Shown one piece after another: positions 3,757 to 13,709 of a DNA stretch of 32,330 nt; positions within the stretch are counted from its first letter, which is position 1, and each line of letters begins with the position of its first letter. The DNA is taken from IMG/VR virus record IMGVR_UViG_3300029812_000045, positions 1 through 32,330 of that record; one strand, written 5' to 3'. Under the pieces are notes generated by a model. That model was not told the origin of the DNA, did not search any database, and saw nothing but the letters and a program-made list of their open reading frames with translations. A program made the translations under genes and the position numbers. This DNA is from a virus.

Positions 3757-4504
3757 GGACAGAGCTATCGCCCTGAAACAGGAAGAGCAGGAATACTACA
3801 AGCGCATCAAGCCTGCCTATGAGGAAGAGCCTAGCTGCCTGATTTGCGGCGACGCCAGGTGGATCAGGACGGGGCGCTGGATTCAGGGACGCCAGGGAAG
3901 GGAGGTCGAGATCGTCCCCTGCCGCTGCACGAGGGAGACGCGAGAGCAGAAGGAACAGCGAATCATGGGCCATTCGGGGACGCCCTTCAAGTTCATGGAC
4001 GCGACTTTCGAGACCTTTGAACGCACGAAGGGCCTGGGGGAAGCGATAGCGGCGGCTCAGGACTTCGCTGAGGGCCGCCTGGAATGCTTGGTGCTGTCGG
4101 GACCTACTGGCAGGGGTAAGACGCACCTGGCGGTGGCGGCGGCCAGGGTAAGGGCGATGCGGGATGAGACACCGAGGTTCTGCTTCCTGAACGTGCCCCA
4201 ATTCCTGGACAGGATACGGGCGAGCTACGGGGGGCAGGAGGATGAGGCCCTGATCATGGGGCCAGCTCAGGATTGGCCTGTCGCCATCATCGACGACCTG
4301 GGCGCTCAGCGCGGCACAGCCTGGGCCGATGAACGGATTTACTGCCTCATCGATGCTCGTTACAGCCAGGGCCGGGCGAGCGTGATCACAACCAACGTCC
4401 TGCCGGCTGAGTGGGAAGAGCGCGTCAGGTCGAGGCTGACCGACCGGCGGGGCTCGAAGGTTTGCCTGATCACGGCGCTGGATTACAGGAAGGGGAAGGC
4501 ATGA
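3632..4504 (+). CDS. DnaC/IstB-like AAA+ helicase loader
   Basis: 290 aa from GTG 3632, chosen because AAAGGGAGG lies 6 nt upstream; a TTG at 3593 in the same frame has no such site. The N-terminal about 60 residues are low-complexity and charged. A zinc-ribbon-like part has CLIC at 69-72 and CRC at 97-99. The AAA+ core has Walker A GPTGRGKT (157-164), Walker B VAIIDD (217-222) and a sensor-like VITTNV near 251. This layout (zinc element then AAA+) is that of DnaC-type loaders that place the replicative helicase on DNA. It overlaps the replisome organiser by 125 nt in the +1 frame and is joined to the next gene by ATGA. No helicase is visible, so the host DnaB is the likely partner. Confidence 0.85.
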   Translation: MEKLGKLLPGASSQNTPSKTGESAGSKAKKRPENTTPKISSEDRAIALKQEEQEYYKRIKPAYEEEPSCLICGDARWIRTGRWIQGRQGREVEIVPCRCTRETREQKEQRIMGHSGTPFKFMDATFETFERTKGLGEAIAAAQDFAEGRLECLVLSGPTGRGKTHLAVAAARVRAMRDETPRFCFLNVPQFLDRIRASYGGQEDEALIMGPAQDWPVAIIDDLGAQRGTAWADERIYCLIDARYSQGRASVITTNVLPAEWEERVRSRLTDRRGSKVCLITALDYRKGKA

Positions 4505-4704: not shown

Positions 4705-5192
4705 AGACTCTCGGCATAGACCCTTCCTCGCGCTCCATCGGCTTGGCCATGCTGGACGGCGAGCGGCTGCTATGGGCCAAGAGTTTTCTGCTGCGGGGCA
4801 GCCTAGAGGGCCGCTTAGTCGCCGCCAGCGACATGATGAAGATGACCCTGGTTCTGGCCTATGACCGACCGGAGCAGGTCATCCAAGAAACGCCTGGCCC
4901 TTGGGCACGGAGCAGCCTCAAGTCCTCGCAGCACACAGTCGAAGTCCTAGCGAAGGTGCGCGGGGTCATCGCTGCTGCCGCCGCCGCTGCCGACATCCCC
5001 TGCCACGAGATGACGGTGAATCGCGCCCGCTACCTGCTGTTCGGCAAAGGGAACACAGCCAAGCACGTTGTCATCGACATGCTCAAACTGATGGGCTACG
5101 AGCCGCCGGACGAGCACGCGGCGGACGCTCTCGTGGTGGCTCTTGCTTGGCAGCGAGAGCGAGCGTTCGAGGAGAGAGTTGCAGCCCAATGA
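4701..5192 (+). CDS. ruvC: RuvC-like Holliday junction resolvase
   Basis: 163 aa from ATG 4701, with GAGGAGGGGAAGGG just upstream. RNase H-fold signatures are in order: LGIDPSSRSIGLAML with Asp7, VIQETPGPW with Glu63, and DEHAADALVVALAW with His139 and Asp142. In some RuvC proteins a His replaces the first Asp of the last pair, so the site looks complete. The length fits RuvC (about 160-175 aa). In the phage it would resolve branched replication or recombination intermediates before packaging. Coupled by ATGA on both sides. Confidence 0.85.
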   Translation: MKTLGIDPSSRSIGLAMLDGERLLWAKSFLLRGSLEGRLVAASDMMKMTLVLAYDRPEQVIQETPGPWARSSLKSSQHTVEVLAKVRGVIAAAAAAADIPCHEMTVNRARYLLFGKGNTAKHVVIDMLKLMGYEPPDEHAADALVVALAWQRERAFEERVAAQ

Positions 5193-5347
5193 AGAGGCTG
5201 GTGCTAGGCGATGTTGTTCCGCCGCCTGGGGTGCAGGAGTCGAGCTTGCTGCCCTCGAAGTGGTTAGGGATCATTGGCAGCATGGCCCTTCCGGCGCGGC
5301 TTCTGCATCCTAGAGGGCGGATCAGCATGGCGCAAGGGGGCTGGTGA
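5189..5347 (+). CDS. Small hypothetical protein coupled to the resolvase
   Basis: A 52-aa frame whose ATG overlaps the resolvase stop (ATGA). The product starts MKRLVLGDVVPPPGVQ and has a mildly hydrophobic centre (WLGIIGSMALPARLL). There is no close ribosome site, so expression would rest on translational coupling. No family recognised. After its stop the same frame reads on to 5404 without another stop; no start codon supports a separate gene there. Confidence 0.4.
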   Translation: MKRLVLGDVVPPPGVQESSLLPSKWLGIIGSMALPARLLHPRGRISMAQGGW

Positions 5348-5455
5348 GGTAGTGTTCTTGGGAACTACGGCTACGGCTGGTGGATGAGCAGGGACGACCG
5401 CACCTAGAGGTCGTGGGTAGCCAGCCCCCAAGCGCCGCCAGGAGGGAGGAGAAGG

Positions 5456-5677
5456 ATGAGCGAAACCTTAATCACCTATGAGGGGGAAATCCACCAGCGT
5501 CCAATATCACGAGGAATCGTCCTAAAAGAACTTGGCGAAGATGGCACATATCTTGATCAGGTTCTGGCGGAAGCGCTGGGCGGTGACTACTCCGCAAGCT
5601 CAGGGGCGCGATTTCGGGGCCGAATCACAATTGAGCGCTTTGATGTTAAGGAGCCGCCCGAAGGAGGCTCTAGCTGA
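5456..5677 (+). CDS. Small hypothetical protein
   Basis: 73 aa from ATG 5456, with an excellent ribosome site (AGGAGGGAGGAGAAGG). The product begins MSETLITYEGEIHQRPISRG and includes VLKELGEDGTYLDQVLAEALG, then FRGRITIERFDVKEPPEGG. It is an alpha/beta-looking cytosolic protein without recognisable motif; small early phage proteins of this style are common. Its last codons contain an AAGGAGG that could serve a downstream CTG-initiated frame (see findings). Confidence 0.6.
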   Translation: MSETLITYEGEIHQRPISRGIVLKELGEDGTYLDQVLAEALGGDYSASSGARFRGRITIERFDVKEPPEGGSS

Positions 5678-5767
5678 GGCTCCATCGGTGCCTGCCCTTC
5701 GTGGTGCTGGGGGCGTGTGTGGTGGCGGGCATCGTGAGCGGCTGGCAGAGTCAAGGAGGGGAGAACG

Positions 5768-5857
5768 ATGGCAATGGGTTGGATATGCCCCAAGTGCGAC
5801 TGGAAGAACGGCTGGTGGGCAGACAGGTGCGCTCACTGTGGAACCAAGAGGCCCTAG
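5768..5857 (+). CDS. RanBP2-type zinc-finger microprotein 1
   Basis: A 29-aa reading frame, ATG 5768 to TAG 5857, with a strong ribosome site (CAAGGAGGGGAGAACG). The product fits the RanBP2-type finger W-X-C-X2-C-X3-N-X6-C-X2-C exactly: Trp5, Cys7, Cys10, Asn14, Cys21 and Cys24, followed by a basic GTKRP tail. The finger is essentially the whole protein. In eukaryotes this fold binds single-stranded RNA or ubiquitin; the role in a phage is unknown. A second, diverged copy follows 21 nt later. A longer frame (5701-6504) runs over it in another phase. Confidence 0.65.
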   Translation: MAMGWICPKCDWKNGWWADRCAHCGTKRP

Positions 5858-5878
5858 ATGCCAGAGGAGGGAACGACG

Positions 5879-5983
5879 ATGAGCAACTGGCGTTGCGGGA
5901 ATTGCACATACGAGAATCCAAGCAAGAATCTATATTGTGGCAACTGCGGAAGTCGCCGCTTGCCCCCAACAAGGAGGCCCTAA
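5879..5983 (+). CDS. RanBP2-type zinc-finger microprotein 2
   Basis: A 34-aa reading frame, ATG 5879 to TAA 5983, preceded by AGAGGAGGGAACGACG. Trp4, Cys6, Cys9, Asn13, Cys20 and Cys23 again match W-X-C-X2-C-X3-N-X6-C-X2-C, with a basic, proline-rich tail ending RRLPPTRRP. It shares motif and frame with microprotein 1 but little other sequence, so an old duplication or separate recruitment is possible. Its stop is directly followed by the ATG of the membrane protein (TAAATG), and the ribosome site of that gene lies in its last codons. Confidence 0.65.
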   Translation: MSNWRCGNCTYENPSKNLYCGNCGSRRLPPTRRP

Positions 5984-6238
5984 ATGCCAGTCCTACCCGA
6001 TTTCCCACTGTGGATCGTCTGCTTGCTGCTCGTGGCGACGGCGGCGTCCGTGTGGCTGGTGGCGATGTGGTGGAACTACCAATGGATATACCCGCTGGAA
6101 TACGACGCAGCGACCCGGCAGGTTCGGCAGCACAAAGTGCGAGTGCGCCGCCAGCGGAAGATTCGCCCGTTCAGGTGCCAGGATGGGCTGAGGCTGCTGG
6201 ACGAGAATGGCAAACTACCGCCGGACAAGGGGGAGTAG
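5984..6238 (+). CDS. Small N-terminally anchored membrane protein
   Basis: 84 aa from ATG 5984 with AAGGAGG 6 nt upstream. Residues about 8-30 (FPLWIVCLLLVATAASVWLV) form one membrane segment. The remainder is basic and cytosolic-looking (RQHKVRVRRQRKIRPFRCQDG). It lies immediately before a transglycosylase-like domain in the -1 frame, so it could be a holin-like or anchoring partner in lysis. No known family is recognised. Confidence 0.6.
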   Translation: MPVLPDFPLWIVCLLLVATAASVWLVAMWWNYQWIYPLEYDAATRQVRQHKVRVRRQRKIRPFRCQDGLRLLDENGKLPPDKGE

Positions 6239-6504
6239 ATGAGCGCATCCGGCGGGCAACGGAATACTGGGGCGTCGAGTGGGCAGCAGATGAACTCCTT
6301 TACGTCGAGTGGTGCGAGTCACGACACAGAGACTGGGTGGTGGGCAGCGCCGGTGAGCTTGGACGTTATCAGTTTATGGCTAGCACTTGGAATACGACGC
6401 CGTATGGACACCTTGATCCTCGGAATCCTGAAGCGGCGACGTTTGCAGCGGCGTGGATGGTGAGCGTTGGAAGGCAATATGAGTTTAGCTGCTGGCCCCG
6501 ATAG
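6175..6504 (+). CDS. Rpf/transglycosylase-like peptidoglycan hydrolase domain
   Basis: At least 109 aa if GTG 6175 is used; the conserved domain begins near 6235. Seen: YVEWCESRH with the probable catalytic Glu48, GSAGELGRYQFMASTW, TPYG, then DPRNPEAATFAAAWM and GRQYEFSCW. This matches the resuscitation-promoting-factor/lytic-transglycosylase fold that cleaves the glycan strand. The start is uncertain: the frame is open to 6082 (ATG), 5701 (GTG) and even 5674 (CTG with AAGGAGG 6 nt upstream). The longest form would add an N-terminal hydrophobic segment and a low-complexity linker, but would run through three other apparent genes. It probably degrades the wall at entry or lysis. Confidence 0.6.
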   Translation: MPGWAEAAGREWQTTAGQGGVDERIRRATEYWGVEWAADELLYVEWCESRHRDWVVGSAGELGRYQFMASTWNTTPYGHLDPRNPEAATFAAAWMVSVGRQYEFSCWPR

Positions 6505-6572: not shown

Positions 6573-6722
6573 ATGAATTGGGGAGATTTCCTTTTCGGTA
6601 TCTGGATAGGCATCACGCTAACCGTCGTGGTAGAGCTTGCGGCACTCGTCATTTGGGCTGTCCTCTATGACTTATTTTCGCGGGTTAGCAAGTTAGAGGA
6701 TGCTGGCCGAGAGGAGGAGTGA
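6573..6722 (+). CDS. Small single-span membrane protein
   Basis: 49 aa from ATG 6573, behind GGTGGAGGTGCTGGA. The product starts MNWGDFLFGIWIG, has a hydrophobic segment across residues 8-32 (ITLTVVVELAALVIWAVLY) and a charged C-terminal tail (SKLEDAGREEE). Size and topology fit a small holin or a lysis regulator, supported by the amidase gene two genes downstream. An in-frame extension to GTG 6528 is glycine-rich and less convincing. No named family. Confidence 0.5.
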   Translation: MNWGDFLFGIWIGITLTVVVELAALVIWAVLYDLFSRVSKLEDAGREEE

Positions 6723-6723
6723 G

Positions 6724-7005
6724 ATGAAGAGGGATGAGGCGCTGAGAATCCTGATGGAGCTAATAGACGAGCAGCCCACTTCAATGGAGTATGAGGCCGT
6801 TCTCGCTACCCTCTCTGCCCCCTGCCCCATCTGCGGTGGGAGGGAGCCGCTGGCGGCATTTGACGGGTGGATTCCTCAAGTGGGAAGCGCTGAAGAAGGT
6901 GCCGCCCCTTGCTTCTTTGGAGCTAAACCACTAGATCGGCCTGTTTGTCCTGTCTACGTCCTCGTGTTCGCCGACAAGCCATATGAGGAGAGAAGCCATG
7001 ATTGA
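6724..7005 (+). CDS. Small hypothetical protein with CPICGG motif
   Basis: 93 aa from ATG 6724 after GAGAGGAGGAGTGAG. An N-terminal helix (RDEALRILMELIDEQ) is followed by CPICGG near residue 38 and two further cysteines (PCFF and VCPVY), which may complete a metal site. It overlaps the amidase start by 8 nt. No family recognised; the context suggests an early or lysis-region accessory protein. Confidence 0.55.
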   Translation: MKRDEALRILMELIDEQPTSMEYEAVLATLSAPCPICGGREPLAAFDGWIPQVGSAEEGAAPCFFGAKPLDRPVCPVYVLVFADKPYEERSHD

Positions 7006-7804
7006 TCTCCGCAGCCGCATCCCCTCCGGCTATACTGGCCGCTTTACCATCCCTAACCTGGACGAAGTGGAGGCTATCGCCGTCCACCATTCGGTGTCGG
7101 GCTGGGTTTGGAATCCGCTTACTCAACAGTATACGGGCCAGGCGTGGAACGAGGCGGTGGATGTACCACAGGAAGTTGAGATAGCCCACCTTCTAGCCAT
7201 TGACCGTTGGCACACGTCACAAGGCTATGGCGGCTTCGGCTATCACATGGCCGCGTTCCCCTCTGGGAGGCGCTATCTCTGCGGCTCTTTGAATACTGCT
7301 CGCGCTCACGTCGCCAGTCTCAACAAGTATTTCCTTGGCCTGGTGCTCATAGGGGACTTCACCGATGCCGTGCCTTTGGATACCCACTTAGTTGCCGCTT
7401 CTGGCTGTGTTGGCTACGCCTGGGGCGAGTTAGGGCGAGAGTTGCCCTGTGTCGCTCACCGCATGATTCGTTTGCAGAACACAACCTGTCCAGGCAACAG
7501 ATGGCGAGAGTGGCTGCCGTTGATTGAGAAGGAGGAGGACATGATAACCATAGAGCAGGAGATAGCATACAAGGAAGCGTTGGGGGAAGAGCTAGAGTTC
7601 ATTGACAACTGTTTGTCATTTGCTGACGACCTGCGCTTCCATGAGCGGGAACTGGCCTTCTGCACTTGGCCTCGCGGCCCTGGGTTTGGGACACCACCTC
7701 CCGATTGGGAGACCTTCCGCAGGATGGCGCCAACCTATAGGGCGCTGATAACCGCAGCCGAAAGAGGTCTGGAGCGCTGCTCAATATATGGTAGACCTGG
7801 TTAG
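6998..7804 (+). CDS. N-acetylmuramoyl-L-alanine amidase endolysin (PGRP/Amidase_2)
   Basis: 268 aa from ATG 6998 with GAGGAGAGAAG upstream. The zinc amidase fold spans residues about 20-180: AVHHS (His30), YGGFGYHMAAFPSG near 77-90, AHRMIRL (His154) and TTCPGNRW (Cys164). His30, His154 and Cys164 correspond to the zinc ligands of T7-lysozyme-type amidases. The enzyme cuts the bond between muramic acid and the stem peptide. No signal peptide is seen, so release would need a holin. The last about 85 residues (from EEDMITIEQEI) are a helical domain I do not recognise, perhaps for wall binding. Confidence 0.85.
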   Translation: MIDLRSRIPSGYTGRFTIPNLDEVEAIAVHHSVSGWVWNPLTQQYTGQAWNEAVDVPQEVEIAHLLAIDRWHTSQGYGGFGYHMAAFPSGRRYLCGSLNTARAHVASLNKYFLGLVLIGDFTDAVPLDTHLVAASGCVGYAWGELGRELPCVAHRMIRLQNTTCPGNRWREWLPLIEKEEDMITIEQEIAYKEALGEELEFIDNCLSFADDLRFHERELAFCTWPRGPGFGTPPPDWETFRRMAPTYRALITAAERGLERCSIYGRPG

Positions 7805-9089: not shown

Positions 9090-9298
9090 TCTTCAAGACT
9101 GACACGGGCGAGCTTGTCATGTTGTTTAGCCAAGGCAAGGGGCCGAAGCTGTACCACAACATCGTCTGTCTAGGGAACAGGCGTCACTACCGCAAGGACG
9201 GCACATGTAGGCACACTGAAGCGCTGTTAGGTCTGATGCGGCCTTGGCACAGGGCGCGGGCTACGGTAACACCTTGGGGGAGCAGCCATGACGCTTGA
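9086..9298 (+). CDS. Small hypothetical protein
   Basis: 70 aa from ATG 9086. The product starts with MIFKTDTGELVMLFSQG and has a Cys/His scatter (IVCLGNRRHYRK and CRHTEALL) that could bind metal. The direct ribosome site is weak, and translation may be coupled to a nine-codon leader. It overlaps the next gene by 11 nt. No family recognised. Confidence 0.5.
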   Translation: MIFKTDTGELVMLFSQGKGPKLYHNIVCLGNRRHYRKDGTCRHTEALLGLMRPWHRARATVTPWGSSHDA

Positions 9299-11584: not shown

Positions 11585-11742
11585 TAGCCAGTGGTTTTTG
11601 CCGTCATTTGGAGCTACAAGACCTACCATCTCAGCTTAACGGCTTTTCTGAGGGTTATAGGGCTCGTGTGGACGACCTCAATTCCCACAACCTATTCAGT
11701 TTAGCTGATGCTCCTTTTCTGGCTGGAGATATTATACCATGA
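11581..11742 (+). CDS. 53-aa unannotated-size ORF between terminase and portal
   Basis: ATG 11581 overlaps the terminase stop (ATGA), and the TGA at 11740-11742 overlaps the portal ATG 11739 (ATGA), so it fills the gap exactly. The product starts MIASGFCRHLELQDLPSQLN and ends LAGDIIP; it is helical and neutral, without a known motif. It has no strong ribosome site and would depend on coupling. The two perfect junctions make coding likely. It may be a small head-assembly factor or simply a translational bridge. Confidence 0.55.
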   Translation: MIASGFCRHLELQDLPSQLNGFSEGYRARVDDLNSHNLFSLADAPFLAGDIIP

Positions 11743-13709
11743 ATGACCTTGGCTGGGCACCGCCCGTCAAGTTCCACCGCAAGCAGGCATTCGAGATCGT
11801 CCCCACCTGGCAGCAAGGGATCGCGCAGCCTACCGACGCGGATCTCGCCAACTTCGCCTCGTCGGGCTACGCGGCTAATTCCCTCATCTATGCCTGCATC
11901 CGAGAGCTGGCAACCTCAGCGGCAGGCGTTCCCATCGAGTTGCTGCGGCCTGATAAGGAAGGCTGGCAGCCTGAACCGCAGCACGCCGTCTTGGACTTGC
12001 TGGACGAGCCAAACGATGATATGGACTTTTCCTCTTTCATAGAGACTCTTGTGACACACCGCGCGTTCGCTGGCAACGCCTACATCGAGAAGGTGCGAGC
12101 TGGGGGTCGCGTGGCTCGGCTCGGCTTCCTGCGGCCCGACCGCGTGGAGATCAAGCCTGGAGCCAAGCGGGAGGATGACATATTCGTCTACACCATCGGC
12201 ACCACGAAGCGCTACATCGAGCGTAAGGACGTGATCCACTTCAAGCTGCCGAATCCCAAGAACGACTTCTACGGCCTGTCGCCCATCGAGGTCATCGCCA
12301 GGGAGGGCGACCTTGACCAGCGCATGACGGACTTCGCCTCGGCGTTCTTCAAGAACGCGGGAGTGCCGTTCGGCCTGCTGACTGTACCTGGGGCCACCAC
12401 GGAGGAAGAGAAGAAGCAGATACGCTCCCGCTGGCGGCGGGCCTTCCAGGGCATCAAGAAGTGGTTCCAGCTCCTCATCCTGAATCAAGAGAGCGCCAAG
12501 TATCAGGCATTGGGCCTCAGTCAGAAGGACATGGAGTTCGAGTCTACACGGAAGCAGGTAGAGTCCCGCATCTGCGCGGCCTTCGGGGTGCCACCCATCC
12601 TCGTCGGGGCGCTGGTGGGTCTCGAGCACGCGACCTACGCTAACTACGGAGTGGCGCAGCAGTCCTTCTGGTCGGAGACCATGAAGCCTCTGCTCTACCG
12701 CATTGCTTCTAGGCTGACCCGCGACCTCCTGCCCGAATTCGCCACCACCGCTGACCGCCGGGCGCGGCTGGCCTTCGACACGTCGGGCGTGGCGGCCTTG
12801 CAGCAGGACAACACGGGCAAGCTGGAGGTCGTGGCGAAGCTCATTGCTGGGGGCGGGTTCACGCCGAACCAGGCGCTGGAGATAGTCGGGATTCCGGCCG
12901 TTGAGGGTGCTGACTTCTACGTGCGGTCCCTGACACAGCTCATCGAGCGGCCAGCAATGAAGAGCCGTGTGGGGTTTAGCCTGCCAGAAGGTAAGGCGAC
13001 AGCGCAGGCACAGCGCTTCGTGGAGGCTCTATTGACGATACGCCAGAGGACGGAGATTCCATTTGCCCATGACCTTGAGGAGTACTTTGAGGCATGGGCC
13101 AGGCGCATCGTCTCCGCGCTTGAGATGGATTCCCGGGCCCCCATCGACCAGCTTCTCCCTGCATCTGCCGACGCTGAACTCGCCACCATCTACGCTGCTC
13201 ACATTGAGGCCATGTCCCGAGCGACGTGGCAAATTATTGACGAGATGTTGCCGAAGGGCCGCAAGGAAGGCTATGAGGACAGGCTGCTAACGCCGCTGTT
13301 GGCCCGCGTTGGCGGTAGGGTATCGGGCATCCATGAAGTCACGCGTCAGGCTCTTCGGGGCACCATCCAGCGGGCTAACGAGGAAGGCTACAGCGCCTAT
13401 CAGATGATCAACGGCGTCGAGGCTGACAACTTCCCTGGCGTCCGCAGCATCGTGACCGAGACCTATGCCAATCGCGCCCAGGCCATCGCCAGGACGGAGC
13501 TTGCCACTTTTCAGAACTGGGCGGCGAACAGGCGCTATGCTGAAGCTGGCGTGACTCAGGTCGAGATCGTGGACGGCGATGGCTGCGGCTGGACGAGCCA
13601 CAACGATCCCGATATCGCGGACGGGTCGCGGCGGACGATAGAGGAGGCCGACGATTATCCGCTGGCCCATCCTAATTGCTGTCGCGTGACGATCCCTGTA
13701 GTAGAATAG
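11739..13709 (+). CDS. Portal protein fused to MuF-like head morphogenesis domain
   Basis: 656 aa from ATG 11739. Residues about 1-400 are an HK97-type portal: NSLIYACIRELATSAAGVP, FIETLVTHRAFAGNAYIEK, FYGLSPIEV, FFKNAGVPFGLLTVPG, and FGVPPILVGALVGLEHATYAN. The portal forms the dodecameric DNA gate at the capsid vertex. A helical linker (about 420-500) leads to a MuF/SPP1-gp7-like domain (about 500-656) with TRQALRGTIQRANEEG, ARTELATFQNWAANRRY and the closing C....HPNCCRVTIPV signature. In many phages these are separate neighbouring genes; here they are one frame with no stop. MuF proteins enter the head and assist early infection or assembly. Confidence 0.85.
   Translation: MNDLGWAPPVKFHRKQAFEIVPTWQQGIAQPTDADLANFASSGYAANSLIYACIRELATSAAGVPIELLRPDKEGWQPEPQHAVLDLLDEPNDDMDFSSFIETLVTHRAFAGNAYIEKVRAGGRVARLGFLRPDRVEIKPGAKREDDIFVYTIGTTKRYIERKDVIHFKLPNPKNDFYGLSPIEVIAREGDLDQRMTDFASAFFKNAGVPFGLLTVPGATTEEEKKQIRSRWRRAFQGIKKWFQLLILNQESAKYQALGLSQKDMEFESTRKQVESRICAAFGVPPILVGALVGLEHATYANYGVAQQSFWSETMKPLLYRIASRLTRDLLPEFATTADRRARLAFDTSGVAALQQDNTGKLEVVAKLIAGGGFTPNQALEIVGIPAVEGADFYVRSLTQLIERPAMKSRVGFSLPEGKATAQAQRFVEALLTIRQRTEIPFAHDLEEYFEAWARRIVSALEMDSRAPIDQLLPASADAELATIYAAHIEAMSRATWQIIDEMLPKGRKEGYEDRLLTPLLARVGGRVSGIHEVTRQALRGTIQRANEEGYSAYQMINGVEADNFPGVRSIVTETYANRAQAIARTELATFQNWAANRRYAEAGVTQVEIVDGDGCGWTSHNDPDIADGSRRTIEEADDYPLAHPNCCRVTIPVVE

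Follow-up and report, generated by a model that had tools for sequence, protein, structure and literature searches.

The DNA analysed here, a stretch of 32,330 bases taken from an IMG/VR virus record and hereafter called the window, carries terminase, portal, capsid and amidase genes. Upstream of the amidase gene, two very short frames (ZF1 and ZF2) and a gene for a small membrane protein (TM84) form a nest in the +1 frame, within the linker-coding part of a longer gene, here termed the enclosing gene (Table 1).

Table 1. Genes in and around the nest, with positions in the window (SD, ribosome site; LLR, codon-usage score).
Feature	Position	Strand	Product or assignment	Start, SD and remarks
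Upstream gene	5456..5677	+	73 aa	its TGA stop and the enclosing gene's CTG start overlap
Enclosing gene	5674..6504	+	signal anchor, linker, C-terminal lysozyme/SLT-like putative peptidoglycan hydrolase domain	probable CTG start at 5674; SD AAGGAGG 5661-5667
ZF1	5768..5857	+	RanBP2-type-like zinc-finger microprotein, 29 aa, MAMGWICPKCDWKNGWWADRCAHCGTKRP	SD AAGGAGG 5753-5759
ZF2	5879..5983	+	RanBP2-type-like zinc-finger microprotein, 34 aa, MSNWRCGNCTYENPSKNLYCGNCGSRRLPPTRRP	SD GAGGAGG 5864-5870
TM84	5984..6238	+	84 aa, single TM, basic tail; frame of ZF1 and ZF2	SD AAGGAGG 5971-5977
Holin-like gene	6573..6722	+	small TM protein without family match; position and hydrophobicity holin-like	LLR +29.4
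Amidase/endolysin gene, downstream	7004..7804	+	Amidase_2-like; phrog_822, E=8.8e-6	start 6983 in the ORF list

An earlier note on this DNA had described ZF1 and ZF2 as two frames of 29 and 34 codons, 21 nt apart, each with a strong ribosome site of its own and an exact fit to a RanBP2-type finger motif, and this description was confirmed. Both peptides fit W-x-C-x2-C-x3-N-x6-C-x2-C exactly, so that each has four cysteines, through which it would bind one Zn2+, and both ribosome sites are near-perfect. The corresponding DNA motif occurs at exactly two sites in the window, ZF1 and ZF2, and at none in 100 dinucleotide shuffles, while in the other genes of the same phage that were tested, 129 ATGs lie internally and out of frame, and just 2 of them have a GGAGG at the right distance. 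An alternative start for ZF2 at ATG 5858 would give 41 aa and abuts the ZF1 stop codon; ATG 5879 is the likelier start, judging by the position of the good ribosome site. The two fingers score 17.6 and 21.2 bits against PF00641, both under the curated Pfam cut-off of 27 bits, and codon-usage scoring did not favour frame 2 over either finger segment (over ZF2, -9.0 for the finger frame and +2.7 for the enclosing frame). Searching phage isolates with ZF1 or ZF2 by tblastn returned chance-level matches only.

The probable start codon of the enclosing gene lies in a CTGA that overlaps the stop of the preceding gene; GTG 5701, at which the earlier note had begun this frame, is a later in-frame codon. 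Its hydrolase domain gave weak matches to PF06737 and PF01464 and a match to phrog_342 (E=5.6e-4), and on these weak matches the enclosing gene may be assigned a role in lysis. A single-sequence AF2 model of this domain (pLDDT 35) is meaningless and was left out of the evidence. The codon-usage LLR of TM84 was +21.5 in its own frame and -14.7 in the overlapping frame. The amidase gene also matched PF01510 (E=0.0011), under the cut-off. RNA folding across the nest was not more stable than in shuffled sequences (z +1.2), and thus a structural RNA does not explain the nest.

Two other phages, here L019 and L042, allowed a comparison of the locus. L019 was retrieved by the finger motif itself, while L042 was reached by way of a CPICGG-family protein encoded nearby and not by its finger. 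Around the fingers L019 and the window are syntenic, and L019 has the same nest; L042 encodes a micro-finger (MGKMPVWVCLKCKTVNFTWAKCPKCGAKAP) at the same place and in the same +1 relation, with a loop one residue shorter. The earlier note had named lack of conservation of the Cys, Trp and Asn positions in homologous phages as grounds for refutation; the fingers of L019 and L042 keep all six key residues, with invariant key codons, while most other residues differ. In all three phages, a long frame with an N-terminal hydrophobic anchor and a C-terminal putative wall-hydrolase domain encloses, in the +1 frame, both a finger and a protein of 67-94 aa with a single TM segment. The hydrolase-like domain of L019 and L042 is common to both and has a D-T-G-G-A-I motif; it has no Pfam match and could be read by eye as 3D-like. 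The start region GGAGG-N6-CTGA is kept throughout (window 5661-5677; L019 minus strand ~7970-7954; L042 3784-3798), and the long frame of L042 has an additional in-frame ATG upstream. The earlier note had also stressed that the fingers occur in pairs, which held only in part: L019 and L042 have one finger each, so the pair is not conserved at this locus, and tandem pairs were found in two unrelated phages, L031 and L023.

Nested fingers are known from these three phages only. No close relatives were found in IMG/VR through the RuvC-like protein or the portal, Megablast against phage isolates gave no match, a DNA pattern of the conserved upstream stretch found L019 only, and a profile of the hydrolase domain (A3) found in IMG/VR only the two phages already known here. 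The A3 profile likewise had no match among 400 genomes from the phylum to which a Chloroflexota MAG belongs, and the CPICGG-family profile had none in cellular genomes. A portal search in that phylum returned remote relatives only (best 31% identity), and micro-fingers were absent from the 8 genomes checked. The best full-length relative of the portal-MuF-like fusion of the window (11739-13709) lies in a genome of this phylum (31%, E 3.6e-65), which may be taken as a weak hint at the host.

Structure prediction, a check that the earlier note had named, was run for ZF2. With an alignment of 20 micro-fingers, AlphaFold (AF2) gave a model with pLDDT 82.9, in which the two crossed beta-hairpins of the RanBP2 fold are present (seen in the ZF2 model only). 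It superposes on RanBP2/NZF fingers, the top PDB matches being those of Trabid NZF1, Nup153, RanBP2 and ZRANB2 (rmsd 0.4-0.9 A, TM 0.7-0.8); the Foldseek E-values were 0.06 or worse, owing to the very short chain. A profile of the micro-finger set found the RBM10 finger, its closest match, and ArnA in the PDB. Spacing and predicted ZF2 fold are thus like those of RanBP2-type/NZF fingers (PF00641), but the phage protein consists of one finger entirely, scores under the Pfam cut-off and lacks the RNA-reading residues. The ArnA finger of Sulfolobus (5a8i, 8s05; PMC6509490), with which profile and fold agree, is prokaryotic, RanBP2-type and placed at the extreme N-terminus, but is fused to an FHA domain, and the partner of ArnA is the vWA protein ArnB.

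Known NZF fingers that bind ubiquitin are marked by Thr-Phe/Tyr after the second Cys and a hydrophobic residue before the last Cys. ZF1 has D-W and H at these places, while ZF2 has T-Y (within CTYEN) but N before its last Cys, so neither carries the complete set. RanBP2 fingers read GGU/GGN RNA via D4, an aromatic residue at 17, R19 and R20, and a finger with K/S at 19/20 showed no RNA binding (PMC6384913). By the position mapping of this analysis, positions 4/17/19/20 are G, G, W, A in ZF1 and N, P, K, N in ZF2, and neither finger therefore shows the residues of the ssRNA-binding subclass. The earlier note had given ssRNA or ubiquitin as the ligands of such fingers, and the diagnostic residues of both window fingers do not support either; the inhibition of a host protein, which it had also put forward, drew no evidence for or against.

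It could nevertheless be argued that the fingers bind single-stranded GG-rich RNA in the manner of ZRANB2 and so regulate translation or mRNA of the phage or the host. The fold is the same as that of the ZRANB2 type, the closest PDB profile match is the finger of RNA-binding RBM10, the peptides are basic (net charge +3 and +5 in the window, +5 in L019 and +6 in L042), known RNA-binding fingers of this type read GGU/GGN (PMC6384913), and the locus is rich in GGAGG. However, all four RNA-reading residues are replaced in ZF1 and ZF2, and the trait is inconsistent between the relatives, L019 having R19 R20 and L042 an aromatic residue at 17. The basic charge is weak evidence for nucleic acid, as basic residues in the +1 frame may be imposed by the codons of an acidic linker in the enclosing frame. 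I regard RNA binding of this kind as improbable. Since the RNA-reading residues and the complete ubiquitin-binding set are both missing and charge says little, docking on a protein is favoured as the role of the finger; this more specific reading is tentative and falls short of an even chance.

Whether the fingers are genes at all was approached by resampling codons in either frame. When the enclosing protein was held fixed, one finger appeared in the nested frame in 0.5-1.1% of trials, with no ribosome site required. The window has two fingers with strong sites, which argues against the view that the enclosing hydrolase gene alone is real and that its codons yield the finger frames by accident. 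In favour of that view, the enclosing frame is maintained and codon usage over the fingers is slightly better in it; against it stand the recurrence of the motif in L042, which was not selected for the motif, and the strong coding signal of TM84 in the same frame as the fingers. Chance fingers are accordingly quite unlikely. Between the window and L042, 13/13 key-codon columns are unchanged (P=2e-4), while the sequences have diverged so far that substitutions counted by codon position are nearly saturated and favour the finger frame only weakly. The same pattern of conservation bears on a further possibility, namely that the short frames serve mainly as leaders, upstream or internal, whose translational coupling sets how much TM84 or hydrolase is made, with peptides that have no target. 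TAG-ATG abutments and 4-nt overlaps would suit such leaders, as would a position immediately 5' of TM84 and, in another phage (L037), of a PG-binding gene; yet a leader would have no need of the six finger residues, and L042 and L019 retain these amid changes at most other positions, which makes this about as doubtful as chance fingers.

When the nested proteins were held fixed and their codons resampled, the enclosing frame was open with P=0.003 in the window and 0.004 and 0.018 in the relatives, figures that, like those for the finger, are not fully independent since the three phages are related. The codon signal of TM84, and the fact that the enclosing gene of the window and of L019 has to start at CTG, might suggest that the long frame is an accident beside real nested genes, its hydrolase domain being expressed otherwise, e.g. 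by frameshift from TM84, but the opening of the long frame in three phages at these probabilities, the hydrophobic anchor in each and the conserved GGAGG-N6-CTGA start site make this very unlikely. The earlier note had set the fingers and the 5701-6504 frame against each other as competitors, and this either/or was mistaken: the enclosing frame is also maintained, and the locus is therefore dual-coding. Dual coding of the nest is the best reading of these comparisons, short of proof. The same kind of nested finger stands at the same place in two other uncultured phages, and so the fingers are probably real proteins that have been widely overlooked; the proposal of free-standing RanBP2-type-like fingers in a phage is supported to this extent, their translation being probable.

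I therefore put the probability of the dual-coding micro-finger reading at roughly 0.6. On this dual-coding reading, two zinc-binding microproteins of ~3-4 kDa would be made from their own ribosome sites within the gene of a putative exported peptidoglycan hydrolase, in a frame one nucleotide off that of the hydrolase, from which the small membrane protein would be made as well. Both frames would be translated late, alongside the lysis genes, and the fingers would remain cytoplasmic. Each may serve as a compact module for docking or regulation, with a partner from the host or the phage that is most likely a protein and less likely a nucleic acid, and its action could tune late expression or the timing of lysis; this last step is suggested by location, as holin-like and amidase genes follow and the finger of L037 shares 4 nt with a PG_binding_1 gene. 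A more elaborate version would make the locus a lysis-control cassette: the linker of a CUG-started exported hydrolase would carry the finger tandem and the membrane peptide as overprinted genes, and a single stretch of mRNA would yield the enzyme together with cytoplasmic factors for timing when it is made or released. Phage one-finger proteins might then form a broad class that has gone unannotated, with this cassette as one case, but as a whole the scheme is speculative and rather unlikely.

The two ingredients of this arrangement have precedents. Rz/Rz1 spanin genes include genes embedded out of frame in a lysis gene, and gene callers often miss them (PMC6139136). The nest resembles them as a case of small genes lying wholly inside a lysis-cassette gene in another frame (+1, in three phages, the lysis role of the enclosing gene being putative), but differs in having several microgenes in a row, a putative hydrolase on the outside and presumptive cytoplasmic fingers; it has no lipoprotein and no i-spanin/o-spanin pair, and neither a lipobox nor a coiled-coil was seen by eye in ZF1, ZF2 or TM84. 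One-domain zinc-finger micro-proteins of <70 aa without other domains have been described in Haloferax volcanii (PMC6562870). ZF1 and ZF2, at 29 and 34 aa with a single finger each, fall within this description, whereas the Haloferax genes are archaeal, chromosomal, un-nested and outside any phage. In the literature searched, no finger nest within a putative hydrolase gene was found, and no description of stand-alone RanBP2 fingers of phages either (coverage of this literature is incomplete).

Stand-alone fingers extend beyond this locus. The motif behind GGAGG...ATG was found in 39 stretches of IMG/VR, and a control with shifted cysteine spacing in none; this DNA pattern did not demand that the ATG be in frame with the finger, and of the re-scanned sites 37/38 were in frame and open. 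Among the matches listed, distinct ORFs that start with a finger were <=45 aa in 12/27 viral and 3/69 cellular cases (Fisher P=7e-6, the cellular figure being a sample), and in the cellular genomes the finger mostly stood at the head of a longer protein, again among the matches listed. With a pattern for the X5-loop finger, L042 was the one clear stand-alone case; the other matches lay in longer proteins or in reads where no stand-alone start was clear. phrog_17317, a PHROG of 31 positions with unknown function, is matched by two of the stand-alone phage fingers in the set (best E 1.9e-5) and weakly by ZF1 (E 0.032), and ZF2 has no match to it. Other phage stand-alone fingers lie among nucleotide-metabolism genes, and a role specific to lysis is hence not general. 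Because gene callers omit very short frames as well as frames nested in longer ones, a class of such phage proteins would escape notice on two counts. The viral over-representation of finger-only proteins turns the use that phages make of a single 30-residue finger into a testable question, and the locus itself is a clean example of dual coding, one host gene harbouring several microgenes.

Several minor observations were made along the way. The tandem micro-fingers of L031 (928-1017 and just downstream, minus strand; 30 and 27 aa) overlap by GTGA, beside a third cysteine-rich frame and with a tRNA-like sequence and a thioredoxin gene nearby. Upstream of the nest, 5219-5320 of the window (~100 bases) is 81% identical to L019; several frames look conserved there, without a clear gene assignment. 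A structured RNA-like element (window 5329-5436; L019 minus strand 9190-9286; L042 ~2579-2722) lies immediately upstream of the next gene's ribosome site in the three phages (z -2.5 and -3.6) and has a conserved closing stem, GGCGC...GGGGGYTGG / CCAGCCCCC..GCGCC, with a variable interior and no match in Rfam. Where the window has ZF2, L019 has a TM microgene of 40-47 aa (7630-7773, minus strand). In L042 the TM gene is divided in two by TAG-ATG (4183-4278), and a second, diverged copy of the hydrolase-like domain with a similar GEVVD leader lies downstream of the nest (4857-5246).
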